Below, in pieces: positions 47,658 through 55,369 of a stretch of DNA of 64,000 bases (within the stretch, counting starts at the first letter, position 1; each line of letters opens with the position of its first letter). The notes under the pieces are model-generated. The model had not been told where the DNA came from. It saw only the letters and a list, made by a program, of their open reading frames with translations, and did not search any database. Made by a program: the position numbers and the translations under genes. The DNA comes from Afipia birgiae 34632 (GTDB taxonomy: Bacteria > Pseudomonadota > Alphaproteobacteria > Rhizobiales > Xanthobacteraceae), in contig NZ_HG326653.1 of the NCBI RefSeq assembly GCF_000308295.2, forward strand, positions 637,648 to 701,647, read 5' to 3'.

Positions 47658-49181
47658 TCAGGCCATCGGCGGCGGGACGTGGGCCGCACACCATTCGCGG
47701 AATATCTCCAGCGACGGATGGGCGAGGGCGCGGTTGAGGTATGTCCACACCCGCGGCTGATGCCGCAGATACTGCGGCTTGCCGTCACGCCGGTTAAGGC
47801 GAGAAAAGGTGCCGAGCAGCCGCGTATTTCGCTGCGCGGACATGATCGCGTATTGCTGGACGAAGGTTGCGGGATCGAAAGCGGGATCTGCGGTTCGCCG
47901 TTCCTTGGCGTAGCGGGTTAGCATCGCGATCTCGATGCTTTCGGGCACATCGATCCGGGCATCCTGCAATAGCGAGACCAGATCGTAGGCAGGGGGACCC
48001 ATCACCGCGTCCTGAAAATCGAGCAGGCCGACGCGCCCGATGTCCCTGCGATGCTCGAGCCAGATCAGATTGGGTGAATGAAAGTCGCGCAGCATCCAGG
48101 TCTTGGGCGTGTCTGCGAGCTTCGCAAACAGATCGTTCCAGATCAGCAGGAAATCCGCCTGCATGTTGCTGGTCAGAGTCACGCCCTTGTCGGGAAGATA
48201 CCATTCCGGCATCAGCCCGACTTCGGTCATCATTGCGGAGTCGTCAAACGGCGGCACGGTATATTCGAGATGCGGCGCCAGCGGCAGCACGTCTGGCAGT
48301 TGTTCCTGATGGAAGGCCGCCAGCATATCCACTGCGGTCTGGTAGCGCTCGGCGATGGGCTTCGGTGGATCGCCCTCGATGAAGAGATCGCCGCCGAAAT
48401 CCTCCGTGAGGAGAAAGCCTTCGTCCAGATCGGCATGATGAATCGCGGGCGCGGAATAGCCGCGCTCGCGCAGTCCGTTGGCGATCGCGACGAACGGTCT
48501 GACATCTTCGGCGAGATGGACGGCCTCGCTATAGGATTTTCCGTCGTACAGCGCCGGTCCGTCCGGGCGACGCGGAGAATTCATCAGGATGGCCGATTGA
48601 TCGCCTTTGAAGAGCCGCGCGTAGGATCGCGTCGAGGCATCACCGGGCATGCGCTGGCGTTTGGCCTCCAGGCTGCCTGCAAGTTCGAGAAAGCGCCGCA
48701 GCGCTGCCAGCCGCTCGACCTTCGCGGCCAGCTTGCCGTATCCCGTGATCTCGGCAGCACGCGCGCCGGTGCCGAGTGACGGGCGGTGGCTGAACGCGAT
48801 GTCGATCCGGTCCGGCGGCAGCATCTGAGGCGCGCGCTCGGGCCATTCGATCAGCGCCACAGTGCCGTCCGGCAGCGGCGATAATCCGATTTCTTCCAGT
48901 TCGTCCGGATCGTTGACGCGGTAGAGATCGGCATGCAGCAGCGGGAAGGACGGCAGATCGTAAGTTTGAGCCAGCGTGAAGGTGGGGCTCGGCACTTCCA
49001 GATCGTCGTCTTGCGCGAGATAGCGGATCAGCGCGCGGGCGGCGGCAGTTTTGCCGGCGCCGAGGTCGCCCGACAGGGTGATGACGTCGCCCGCGCTCAG
49101 CAGCAGCGCGAGATCGGCCATGAGCTGGCCGGTGGCGACTTCATTGGCCAGCGCAGCGTGAAATGTCGAGGAATCGCTCAT
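47658..49181 (-). CDS. Fusion of TsaE ATPase and AmgK-like aminoglycoside-phosphotransferase-fold kinase
   Basis: A 507-residue two-domain protein. Residues 1-160 are TsaE, the ATPase that recycles the complex making t6A37 in tRNA (Walker A GDLGAGKTAAARALI, then SPTFTLAQ and LLHADLYRV). Residues 170-507 are an APH-fold sugar kinase (LRDFHSPNLIWLEH catalytic loop, GLLDFQDAVMGP metal site) resembling AmgK, the anomeric MurNAc/GlcNAc kinase. The two activities are unrelated, and the fusion is common in Rhizobiales, from memory. It overlaps divL by four bases and is followed by PilZ and murU. Confidence 0.88.
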   Translation of the reverse strand: MSDSSTFHAALANEVATGQLMADLALLLSAGDVITLSGDLGAGKTAAARALIRYLAQDDDLEVPSPTFTLAQTYDLPSFPLLHADLYRVNDPDELEEIGLSPLPDGTVALIEWPERAPQMLPPDRIDIAFSHRPSLGTGARAAEITGYGKLAAKVERLAALRRFLELAGSLEAKRQRMPGDASTRSYARLFKGDQSAILMNSPRRPDGPALYDGKSYSEAVHLAEDVRPFVAIANGLRERGYSAPAIHHADLDEGFLLTEDFGGDLFIEGDPPKPIAERYQTAVDMLAAFHQEQLPDVLPLAPHLEYTVPPFDDSAMMTEVGLMPEWYLPDKGVTLTSNMQADFLLIWNDLFAKLADTPKTWMLRDFHSPNLIWLEHRRDIGRVGLLDFQDAVMGPPAYDLVSLLQDARIDVPESIEIAMLTRYAKERRTADPAFDPATFVQQYAIMSAQRNTRLLGTFSRLNRRDGKPQYLRHQPRVWTYLNRALAHPSLEIFREWCAAHVPPPMA

Positions 49182-51846: not shown

Positions 51847-52305
51847 CTACCGCCCGGTGGAACCAAATCCGCCGCTGCCCCGATCGGTGGGCGACAGCGA
51901 TGCAACTGCCACCAGATTTGCCTGCGACACTGCCGCGATGACAAGCTGGGCGATGCGCTCCCCGCGCCGGATCGTGAATGGCTCGTCGCCATGATTGATC
52001 AAAAGCACTGAAACTTCGCCGCGATAGTCGGCGTCGACGGTTCCCGGCGAATTGAGAACGGTCACGCCGTGCTTGAATGCGAGACCTGAGCGCGGCCGCA
52101 CCTGCGCCTCTTGGCCTGGCGGCACCGCGATCATCAGCCCGGTTGGCACCAGCGCGCGTTGTCCCGGCTGCATCGTCAGCGGCCTGTCTTCGGGAACCGC
52201 CGCCAGGAGATCGAGGCCCGCGGCATGCGCGGTCTGATAGGCCGGCAGCGCCAGGCCTTCGGCGTGAGGCAGGCGCTGGATCTCGACGGTTTTGCTCGAA
52301 GTCAT
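51847..52305 (-). CDS. dut: Deoxyuridine 5'-triphosphate nucleotidohydrolase
   Basis: A 152-residue trimeric dUTPase that removes dUTP and makes dUMP for thymidylate. Motifs 1-5 are seen as [39 protein letters not shown] and [10 protein letters not shown]. It lies five bases downstream of coaBC on the same strand, so the two are one operon. The coaBC-dut pair is widespread. Confidence 0.97.
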
Positions 52306-52310
52306 GTGGG

Positions 52311-53726
52311 TTATTCTTCCATAGTCTCGGCGATCTTCGCCACCAGCGCGCCGGCGACTTCCTCTTTCGTCATCACCGGCCAGGAATCAACCGCGATATC
52401 GGCTTTATCCCGTGTAAGAATGTGGACGGTGTTGCGGTCCCCGCCCATCACGCCAGATGCAGGCGACACATCATTGGCGACGATCCAGTCGCAGCCCTTG
52501 CGCTTCAGCTTCGATGTTGCGTTATCGATCAGATTCTGGGTTTCGGCGGCGAAGCCGATCACGAGTTGTGGCCGGTTTTGCTGGCGTTTCGACACCGTCG
52601 CCAGAATGTCAGGATTTTCGACCAGTTGCAGCGGCGGCATGCCGCTCGCGGTCTTCTTGATCTTCTGCTCGCCGGCGCTGGCGACGCGCCAGTCGGCCAC
52701 GGCCGCGGCAAAGATCGCGATATCCACCGGCAATGCGGCTTCCACTTGCGCAAGCATGTCGCGGGCGGATTCCACGCGGATGACGCGGACGCCGGCAGGA
52801 TCGTCGAGATCGACGGGGCCTGAAATCAGCGTGACATCCGCACCTGCGTCGGCGGCGGATGCCGCGATCGCGTAACCCTGCTTGCCGGAGGAGCGGTTGG
52901 CGATATAGCGCACCGGATCGATCGGCTCGTGGGTCGGGCCTGCGGTGATGAGAATCTTCTTTCCTGCAAGTGGACCCGTGTGCAGCGGGCGCAACATGGC
53001 CTCTGCCGCGATGGCAATTTCGGTCGGCTCCGACATGCGGCCGACGCCTGCCTCGTTGGCTTCGGCCATCTCACCGGAGTTCGGGCCGATGAAGCTGACG
53101 CCGTCGCGCGCGAGCTGCGCGACGTTGCGCTTGGTGGCGGCATTGGCCCACATCAGCGGGTTCATCGCGGGCGCAACCAGAACCGGGCGATTGGTCGCGA
53201 GCAGGATCGCGGTGGCGAGATCGTCGGCGTGGCCCTGCGCCATCTTGGCCATCAGATCGGCGGTGGCAGGGGCGACGATAATCAGGTCGGTATCGCGGGC
53301 GAGGCGGATATGTCCGGCGTCGAACTCGCTCTGTGCGTCGAACAGGTCCGTGTAGCAGCGTTCATCCGCTAGCGCCCCGGCGGTGAGCGGGGTCACGAAT
53401 TGCTGCGCGGCGCGCGTCATCACGCTGCGGACATGGATGCCGCGCTCCTTCAGGCGGCGGATCAGGTCGAGCGCTTTGTAGGCGGCGATGCCGCCGCCGA
53501 TGATCAGCGTCACCCGGGGAAGATCCGTGGCGGACGGCGTGCGGGGCCGGTGTGGCTGGGCCGGAGTGCTTCGCGCGGGGCTCGACTGGGTCTTGGCCGG
53601 TGCTTCCGCGGCCTCCCGCAGGATCATCCGCACCTCGTCCTCGACCGAGCGGCCGGCCTTGGCGGCGCGCAGCCGGAGACTTGCTTTGAGAGCTTCATCG
53701 AGTTTACGGACGGTCAGACTGGCCAT
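52311..53726 (-). CDS. coaBC: CoaBC with N-terminal FitA/Arc-like ribbon-helix-helix domain
   Basis: A 471-residue protein. Residues 1-42 ([16 protein letters not shown], then [17 protein letters not shown]) match a FitA/Arc-type ribbon-helix-helix DNA-binding domain. A Pro/Ser/Thr linker spans about residues 43-68. CoaC, the flavin decarboxylase, follows to about residue 240 ([16 protein letters not shown] and PAMNPLMW); the usual ACG catalytic Cys motif is not evident where GVGRM is found. CoaB, the ligase, completes it ([32 protein letters not shown]). It catalyses two CoA-synthesis steps. AGGAG lies six bases before ATG, and its promoter overlaps a perfect palindrome. The RHH part may make it self-regulating. 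Confidence 0.93.
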
Positions 53727-53748
53727 GACATACTCCTAACGAGCGTCA

Positions 53749-53777
53749 TTTATAGCGAATGATAGCATTGCAATCAA
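53749..53777 (-). promoter_or_regulatory. Predicted sigma-70 promoter of coaBC
   Basis: On the minus strand, TTGATT (53777-53772) and TATAAA (53754-53749) are separated by exactly 17 bases. The transcript would start near 53742 with a leader of about 15 bases containing AGGAG. The -35 box and spacer lie inside the adjacent palindrome. Confidence 0.65.
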
Positions 53778-53797
53778 ATCATGATTGCAATGCTATC
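53761..53797. promoter_or_regulatory. Perfect 16-bp inverted repeat, putative CoaBC autoregulatory operator
   Basis: GATAGCATTGCAATCA and TGATTGCAATGCTATC are exact mirrors separated by AATCA. It is AT-rich, lies 35 bases upstream of the coaBC start and covers the -35 region of its predicted promoter. TGATAGCA / TGCTATC-like half-sites recall the FitA operator as I remember it. A terminator for ubiB is less likely, since no T-run follows on the minus strand. Confidence 0.7.
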
Positions 53798-53800
53798 GCA

Positions 53801-55369
53801 TCAGCGAATGGACCAGAGAATCCCAATAAACGTCAATGCAATCATCCAGAGCGCGGCGGTCTGCCAGCGGGTGCGCTTCGCCTCGGCTTTGCCGATGGCG
53901 GCGACGGTTTCGGGCGAAAGCACCAAGCCGTCACGGGTCATCTGGTCGAATTGGTTCAGCACGGCGACCGAGCGTGCGGCGATCGCAGGCAGCCCGGACA
54001 ATACCTTGCCGAGGTCGCCCGCGCCGTGCACCACGCCTTCGATCTGGCCGAGCGGGCCGAGATTGCGCGCGATCCATTCACGCACCACGGGATCGGCGGT
54101 GGTCCAGATATCGAGCTTGGGATCGAAGCCGCGTGCCACGCCCTCGACCACCACCATGGTCTTTTGCAGCATGATCAGTTCGGGCCGTGTGCGCATGTCG
54201 AACAGGCCGGTGACTTCGAGCAGCAGCGACAGCAATTTCGCCATCGAGATCTCATCGGCGGCGCGGTTGTGGATCGGTTCGCCGATGGCGCGGATGGCTT
54301 GCGCGAAATTCTCCACCGAGTGATGCGCTGGTACATAGCCCGCCTCGAAATGAACTTCGGCGACGCGGCGATAGTCGCGGGTGATAAAGCCCAGCAGAAT
54401 CTCGGCAAGGAAGCGGCGCTCCTTCAGGCCGAGCCGTCCCATGATGCCGAAATCGACTGCGACCAGTCGTCCGGTGTCGTCGACGAACAGGTTGCCGGGA
54501 TGCATGTCAGCGTGGAAAAAACCGTCGCGCAGCGCATGCCGCAGGAAGTTCTGGATCACCTTGCGGCCGAGATCCGGCAGGTCGATTTGCGCGGCCTCGA
54601 GCTTGGCGCGATCATTGAGCGCGATCCCGTCGATCCACTCCATCGTCAGCACATGATGGCTGGTGCGATCCCAATCCACCGATGGCACGCGGAAATCGTG
54701 ATCGTCGCGGGTGTTCTCCGCCATCTCGGAGAGCGCGGCCGCCTCCAGCCGCAGATCCATTTCCATTGCGACCGACCGCGACAGGGTGTCGACGATTTCC
54801 ACCGGCCGCAGACGTCGCGCCTCTGCGGAAATCGCTTCGATCTTGCGTGCGGCAAACATGAAAGAGCTCAGATCATGTCGGAAACGGCCGCCGACATTTG
54901 GCCGCAGCACCTTGACGGCAACCGTCTTGCGGACGCCGTCTTTTTCCACTTCGGCGCGATGGACCTGTGCGATGGAGGCGGCAGCCACCGACTCGCCGAA
55001 ACTCGCAAACACCTCAGGCACAGGCCTGTCGAACGCAGTAACCACCACGGCTTCCGCCTGCGCCTGCGGAAACGGCGGCAGGCGATCCTGCAGATTCTCC
55101 AGGTCGCGGGCCATCGTGATGCCGACGACGTCAGGCCGGGTGGCGAGAAACTGGCCGAGCTTCACATATGTCGGACCAAGGCGCGTCAATGCGCGGGACA
55201 ACCGTCCGCTGGTCGCCGCGCCGGGCCGTTCGATCAGCCGCGCCATGCGGACCGCGAACTGCGCCTGCGGCGGCATGGTGGATGGATCGGCGAAGCCGAA
55301 CACGCCTTCGCGCGCGAACACGTAACCCGCGCGCGCCAGTCTCAGGGTATGAGTGATGGCAGAAATCAC
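53801..55369 (-). CDS. ubiB: Ubiquinone biosynthesis atypical kinase UbiB
   Basis: A 522-residue ABC1/ADCK-family protein needed for coenzyme Q synthesis. The family KxGQ motif appears as [19 protein letters not shown]-binding lysine is in [10 protein letters not shown]; the catalytic-like loop is [15 protein letters not shown]. One or two C-terminal transmembrane helices end the protein (near residues 498-520). It overlaps ubiE by four bases, so ubiE-ubiB are coupled, and coaBC with dut follow after the palindrome. Confidence 0.95.

Follow-up and report, generated by a model that had tools for sequence, protein, structure and literature searches.

The locus raises the question of why CoaBC, an enzyme of coenzyme A (CoA) synthesis, carries a ribbon-helix-helix (RHH) DNA-binding domain at its N-terminus, and whether this domain acts on the gene that encodes it. 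CoA synthesis is essential. From the comparison of sequences and models described below, the RHH-CoaBC protein is likely to be both a working CoaBC and a repressor of its own promoter, its head being an antitoxin domain that would have been captured together with its operator. The window (the whole stretch of DNA analysed, 64,000 nucleotides) contains the following features at and around coaBC.

51847 to 52305, minus strand: dut (dUTPase), 5 bp past coaBC (ORF and Pfam)
52311 to 53726, minus strand: coaBC ORF with N-terminal RHH, 471 aa, ATG start (ORF list, Pfam and TIGR00521)
52416 to 52970, minus strand: CoaB, the DFP domain, residues 253-437 (Pfam)
53034 to 53516, minus strand: CoaC, the Flavoprotein domain, residues 71-231 (Pfam)
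53520 to 53597, minus strand: Pro/Ser/Thr-rich linker, residues 44-69 (pLDDT < 50 for 44-64; varies among relatives)
53607 to 53723, minus strand: FitA-like RHH domain, residues 2-40, with strand SLTVR including Arg7 and helices 11-24 and 28-41 (PF22513, models)
53733 to 53737, minus strand: Shine-Dalgarno-like AGGAG, 6 nt ahead of the ATG (read in the sequence)
53749 to 53754, minus strand: candidate -10-like TATAAA, separated by 17 bp from the -35-like hexamer (read in the sequence)
53760 to 53776, no strand assigned: putative operator unit 1, TGATAGCA-T-TGCAATCA, which shares bases with the -35-like hexamer (repeat and conserved grammar)
53772 to 53777, minus strand: candidate -35-like TTGATT (read in the sequence)
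53782 to 53798, no strand assigned: putative operator unit 2, TGATTGCA-A-TGCTATC(G), with G instead of A as the last base (sequence, repeat)
53801 to 55369, minus strand: ubiB, the upstream neighbour of coaBC (ORF and Pfam)

The single 471-aa ORF was matched by PF22513, Flavoprotein, DFP and TIGR00521, in line with the fusion of CoaBC to an RHH domain proposed in the first-pass annotation. PF22513 was placed on residues 2-40 (55.5 bits, cut-off 27, E 5.5e-15), and this profile search bore out the earlier assignment of residues 1-42 to a FitA-type RHH. The isolated 43-aa N-terminal piece matched PF22513 at E 3.5e-17 and had zero matches in NCBIfam. TIGR00521 (coaBC_dfp) was matched over residues 71-465 with 400.2 bits (cut-off 219.7), as expected of a full-length equivalog. 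The FitA chains 2bsq and 2h1o were found by the N-terminus in a sequence search (E about 4e-5). AlphaFold2 gave high confidence for helices 11-24 and 28-41 and pLDDT below 50 for residues 44-64, most of the 26-residue Pro/Ser/Thr linker that had been described ahead of a full CoaC-CoaB. The best Foldseek matches of the RHH model were FitA structures on DNA (2bsq first; probability 1.00, TMq 0.86-0.88, E 0.017), with RHH structures of Escherichia coli PutA also among the matches; because the domain is short, no match reached E 0.001. The beta strand and two helices of the RHH fold were found, the strand being unassigned in the monomer model, presumably because the RHH sheet is intermolecular. 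Genome-wide, RHH-CoaBC was the sole match to PF22513 and also the sole CoaBC, with complete CoaC and CoaB domains. The genome holds no PIN domain at E ≤ 0.001, which extends the earlier remark that no fitB/PIN toxin lies nearby and leaves the protein without the adjacent toxin of a FitA/VapB antitoxin.

The RHH codons were found to be under purifying selection, with dN/dS of 0.095 in Afipia, 0.217 in Bradyrhizobium and 0.134 in the Pseudolabrys group (0.061-0.175 over the first 150 CoaC codons; both sets computed without an alignment step). Because of this selection the RHH part is very likely translated, as had been claimed from the reading frame and from the AGGAG ribosome site ahead of its start, which was likewise located. 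Arg7 in the strand, Ser27, Glu29 and Arg33 were invariant across the 40 rows of alignment A2, which comprises 36 fused proteins and four antitoxins of toxin-antitoxin (TA) pairs, the L058 antitoxin described below standing outside it. The linker differed between relatives in both length and sequence. An annotation error as the source of the fusion was ruled out by its conservation and the dN/dS values.

The fusion is widespread among relatives. PF22513 was carried by 118 of 120 homologues among the matches listed, which answers the question of conservation that the first-pass annotation had posed; the other two (P0054 and P0062) are incomplete records that begin in the linker or in CoaC and lack an N-terminal Met. 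In the family sample, CoaBC was present in 60 of 61 genomes and an in-frame RHH in 33 of these 60 (including L069, whose CoaC-CoaB reading is broken). Three further genomes (G009, G049 and G044) had an RHH gene ahead of coaBC, and in G055 the RHH piece and the CoaBC core lay on two contig ends. Alignment from residue 1 or 2 was seen, among the matches listed, in 8 of the 9 genomes that belong to the window's family and in four genomes of another family, f24, in the order sample (249 genomes, 242 with a match); in the class sample (190 genomes, 144 with a match) residue-1 alignment was seen only in the window's genome, again among the matches listed, and low-scoring fusions could be missed in both samples. 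The N-terminal extensions of G451 and G319, the two examined in the class sample, showed no RHH before CoaC. The Microvirga locus L171 was rejected as a fusion: its tblastn match ran from residue 8, yet it has no RHH.

Eighty named loci were also fetched, 57 of which (L092-L148) matched from residue 1; these came from Afipia, Bradyrhizobium, Pseudolabrys, other Xanthobacteraceae and more broadly labelled MAGs. All but two (L103, with a broken frame, and L110, read individually) were classed as in-frame fusions (55 loci), and the other 23 of the 80, mostly Microvirga, were RHH-free by the same classifier. In L103, an Afipia MAG, the RHH-CoaC frame is broken at 2501-2719, by a sequencing error or a real split. 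Duplicates (L001 and L071 of L002, L031 of L058, L034 of L143) and the contig-end pieces L060 and L070 were dropped before the counts given below.

The gap between ubiB and coaBC is 74 bp long and contains two 17-bp units of the form TGATNGCA-N-TGCNATCA, 22 bp apart centre to centre. The upstream palindrome mentioned in the first-pass annotation sits past the ubiB stop and ahead of the coaBC start; its two 16-nt arms (53761-53776 and 53782-53797) are perfect inverted copies of each other, 5 nt apart. The spaced pattern TGATNGCAN{0,30}TGCNATCA occurred once in the 5.33-Mb genome. For comparison between loci, the octamers TGATNGCA/TGCNATCA, TGATATCA, TGCTAGCA or TGCATGCA were scored; these variants were picked after the fused loci had been viewed, and unfused loci, coding DNA and whole genomes served as controls. 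Octamers were found within 300 bp upstream of the start in 97/97 fused and 2/53 unfused coaBC loci (L110, whose DNA holds masked bases, was added to these counts), a distribution in keeping with the earlier suggestion that the enzyme may be tied to its own transcription; the 97 fused loci are related to each other and hence not independent. Within 110 bp the counts were 94/96 and 1/52, L028 being absent here and from the spacing, density and inverted-repeat figures. The general 17-mer TG-N4-CA-N-TG-N4-CA was present in 93 of the 97 fused loci and in none of the 53 unfused; its absence from the other four fused loci counts against an autorepressor. Perfectly symmetric 17-mers were found in 40/97 fused versus 0/53 unfused loci; seven different half-sites occur among them, a variety compatible with a site for a two-fold symmetric protein. 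The distance from the last octamer to the start also varied (median 32 bp, range 1-260), and because half-sites and distance both vary, the octamers are not the plain carry-over of one sequence.

Octamer density was 9.06/kb upstream of fused genes versus 0.08/kb in flanking coding DNA (96 loci), and octamers were most often spaced 9 bp apart (89 cases), followed by 13, 22, 23 and 14 bp. A plain inverted-repeat score, a weaker measure than the octamers, beat 59 or more of 60 shuffles in 55/96 fused versus 1/52 unfused loci. A search of 61 whole genomes for the exact 17-mer TGATNGCANTGCNATCA gave 18 sites, and coaBC or its RHH gene follows closely on 16 of these; of the remaining two, one lies inside an ORF and one before an ORF that is nitrilase-like by eye. 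The latter (L173, G060:C1:810106-810122) stands directly ahead of that ORF, and the coaBC of its genome carries no fusion. Extra, REP-like DNA sets the octamers of L016 and L022 off from the fused coaBC; they are nonetheless retained, 156-291 bp upstream, and at this distance repression of the nearest promoter would be less obvious.

Unit 1 appears to overlie a candidate coaBC promoter, formed by the -35-like and -10-like hexamers listed above. A stricter promoter scan of the locus listed no promoter, and the overlap is not independent evidence because TTGATT belongs to the octamer sequence itself. A transcript from this region would probably include dut with coaBC.

Several other readings were weighed against autorepression by RHH-CoaBC. 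The perfect inverted repeat might act as RNA, in an attenuator or terminator hairpin, and not as an operator; many relatives, however, carry tandem or shifted octamers and not one long hairpin, and a repeat upstream of the -10-like hexamer would be absent from the RNA of that promoter. We hold such a role to be very unlikely, and the terminator or hairpin reading was set aside on the scan of the locus, which gave no terminator-like site. An in-frame GTG codon at Val72 could allow most cellular CoaBC to start internally at CoaC, so that the RHH would seldom be made; by eye no purine-rich ribosome site precedes this GTG, AGGAG does precede the ATG of the RHH, and the selection on the RHH codons makes an internal start quite improbable. 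RHH domains dimerise. This general property, and the 53 unfused coaBC loci of relatives that do without an RHH, would suit a passenger domain that aids oligomerisation or localisation of CoaBC while another regulator uses the upstream sites. Such a passenger is improbable: the octamers track the fusion and not coaBC itself, they also accompany it in a second lineage (L072-L075), their grammar is common to some antitoxin-type genes, and strand Arg7 is invariant among the aligned fused rows. That RHH-CoaBC is still the antitoxin of a PIN toxin is exceedingly unlikely, for all its probable descent from FitA/VapB, since a variable linker follows the RHH and the genome has no PIN domain at E ≤ 0.001; on the latter ground an antitoxin function was ruled out for the window's genome.

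Ligand gating is an extension of autorepression and not an alternative to it. CoA thioesters, CTP, phosphopantothenate or FMN, bound at the CoaB or CoaC site, might switch the repressor and make RHH-CoaBC a trigger enzyme, an idea close to the sensing of FMN, CTP or pantetheine intermediates that the first-pass annotation had raised as a possibility. Mycobacterial CoaB is inhibited by CoA and acyl-CoAs, with IC50 values of 38-148 µM (from an excerpt of PMC7794376), and PutA provides a precedent, being switched by proline and by the redox state of its flavin (as excerpted from PMC5293562). Against this, the low-confidence linker is probably disordered and offers no visible coupling path in the model, and the same excerpt reports that the DNA affinity of PutA fell only 2-fold on flavin reduction (PMC5293562). 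Gating is put forward as a tentative addition to autorepression, somewhat doubtful as it stands.

The origin of the domain is suggested by what occupies the ubiB-coaBC junction in other genomes. An RHH gene followed by a PIN gene lies between ubiB and coaBC in L057 (G044, of the window's family) and in L175 (G305, of family f24), and in L076 (G128, f24) an RHH gene and then an RHH-PIN pair stand directly ahead of coaBC (1605-2475). Pfam confirmed the RHH in L057, L175, L058 and the second L076 gene, and all three PIN genes. L058 (G009) contains an antitoxin and an apparent PIN gene minus its middle (a remnant read by eye), and L050 (G049) an antitoxin, perhaps with a very short PIN remnant (by eye), and octamers, with no fusion. 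As RHH-PIN pairs and apparent remnants occupy this junction, the RHH of CoaBC is probably a captured antitoxin head that was fused after loss of the toxin, a probable origin in an inserted TA module that the first-pass annotation did not note. In the L058 antitoxin (ORF 2373-2654, oriented) His replaces Arg at position 7, and no octamers lie upstream. Beside the toxin remnant, the antitoxin protein and its site look as if they had decayed together.

The antitoxin-type genes of L065, L067, L076 and L175 are preceded by three to four TG-N4-CA octamers at a 9-bp pitch (four in L065 and three in L067, exactly at that pitch, with downstream ORFs that are PIN-like by eye), a feature that links the sites at coaBC with the operators of TA modules. 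A 9-bp octamer pitch may thus be the site grammar of some FitA-like antitoxins; this tandem grammar was present in 5 of the 13 antitoxin-type loci read, and the general 17-mer was absent from the other 8, including the junction loci L057 and L058.

In genus g108 (family f24) the RHH of L073-L075 is of a single type (34-41 of 41 residues identical), and that of L072 is of a different type that most resembles the L076 antitoxins (27 and 24 of 41). The L072 linker showed a weak relation to the C-terminus of the second L076 antitoxin (score reached by 20/2000 shuffles) and no relation to that of the first (1187/2000). A tree of 154 CoaC-CoaB cores, built by a quick method that does not separate gains from losses (L103 left out, L069 and L070 being too short), required at least four changes of the fused label on strongly supported branches. 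The f24 rows formed a supported cluster of their own, apart from the main fused group, and on our reading the fusion would have arisen in at least two lineages. L050 falls inside a fused group; a single history of insertion and then fusion therefore does not fit everything, and a renewed insertion, or repeated fusion from a TA module that stayed in place, has to be weighed.

The preferred reading, autorepression by RHH-CoaBC, draws on the RHH fold and the Arg7 kept in 40 aligned rows, on octamers that accompany the fusion and are rare in coding DNA and genomes, and on the presence of only one PF22513 protein in the genome. A fitAB-like operon would formerly have stood between ubiB and coaBC; its toxin would have been lost, the DNA-binding head of the FitA/VapB-type antitoxin joined in frame to CoaBC, and the antitoxin operator retained within the coaBC promoter. 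RHH dimers would form between protomers of the CoaBC oligomer, on flexible linkers, and sit on the tandem TG-N4-CA octamers (pitch 9 bp; the window has two units, with 22 bp from one to the other). Occupancy over the -35 region would block RNA polymerase, so that the promoter would be open when CoaBC is scarce and closed when it is plentiful, dut probably being repressed as well. FitA half-sites are TGCTATCA/TGATAGCA, and Arg7 of FitA is needed. FitA binds DNA through its RHH; by making the FitA-FitB heterotetramer more stable, FitB favours this binding (excerpts of PMC3920265 and PMC5086665); the CoaBC oligomer, a dodecamer in Mycobacterium (excerpt of PMC7794376), may replace FitB as the scaffold that keeps RHH dimers side by side. 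A broader scheme, repeated capture of antitoxin heads by coaBC from fitAB/vapBC modules that enter its junction with ubiB, with toxin loss, the oligomer as scaffold and a repressor gated by CoA thioesters or CTP, is possible and no firmer than the gating itself.

Among known systems, FitAB/VapBC antitoxins share the PF22513 family, the first Foldseek match and, in some antitoxin-type genes of related genomes, the tandem octamer grammar; RHH-CoaBC differs in having no PIN partner, in the linker and CoaBC that follow the RHH, and in a target gene that would be a biosynthetic enzyme. Ordinary CoaBC (TIGR00521; M. smegmatis 6TGV) has the same complete CoaC and CoaB domains, to which RHH-CoaBC adds the N-terminal RHH, the linker and the upstream octamers. 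MetJ, a repressor that controls biosynthesis, also places RHH dimers on tandem 8-bp boxes, but it is a stand-alone protein with SAM as corepressor, unlike RHH-CoaBC. The closest parallel in function would be PutA, a bifunctional flavoenzyme that carries an N-terminal RHH and represses its own genes; attachment of an RHH to a bifunctional PutA yielded a DNA-binding chimaera (both from the excerpt of PMC5293562). PutA and RHH-CoaBC are both metabolic enzymes fused to an RHH, and PutA was the sole RHH-bearing enzyme in the literature examined. The enzyme and pathway differ, however: RHH-CoaBC has CoaC and CoaB and no proline dehydrogenase or P5C dehydrogenase, its RHH is of the PF22513 family with a probable antitoxin origin, and its genome holds no second spaced-pattern site. 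RHH-CoaBC is no PutA, although its mode of action may be similar, and autorepression, if true, would join a PutA-like mode of action to another origin and pathway.

The RHH and CoaBC architecture is already visible as Pfam domains in the protein database. No description of the fusion or of its autorepression was found in the open-access PMC literature and, as far as the searches go, the operator, the origin and the circuit are undescribed there. The data suggest for Bradyrhizobium and Afipia a simple circuit in which the amount of an enzyme would be read out at the promoter of its own gene. A TA pair before the gene, an antitoxin with an apparent toxin remnant and an in-frame fusion form a natural series, which could show how a selfish module became part of a housekeeping enzyme and which comes with a concrete candidate operator. 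Elsewhere in the window, a 507-aa ORF (47658-49181, minus strand) resembles, from its translation alone, TsaE with a phosphotransferase-like domain behind it.
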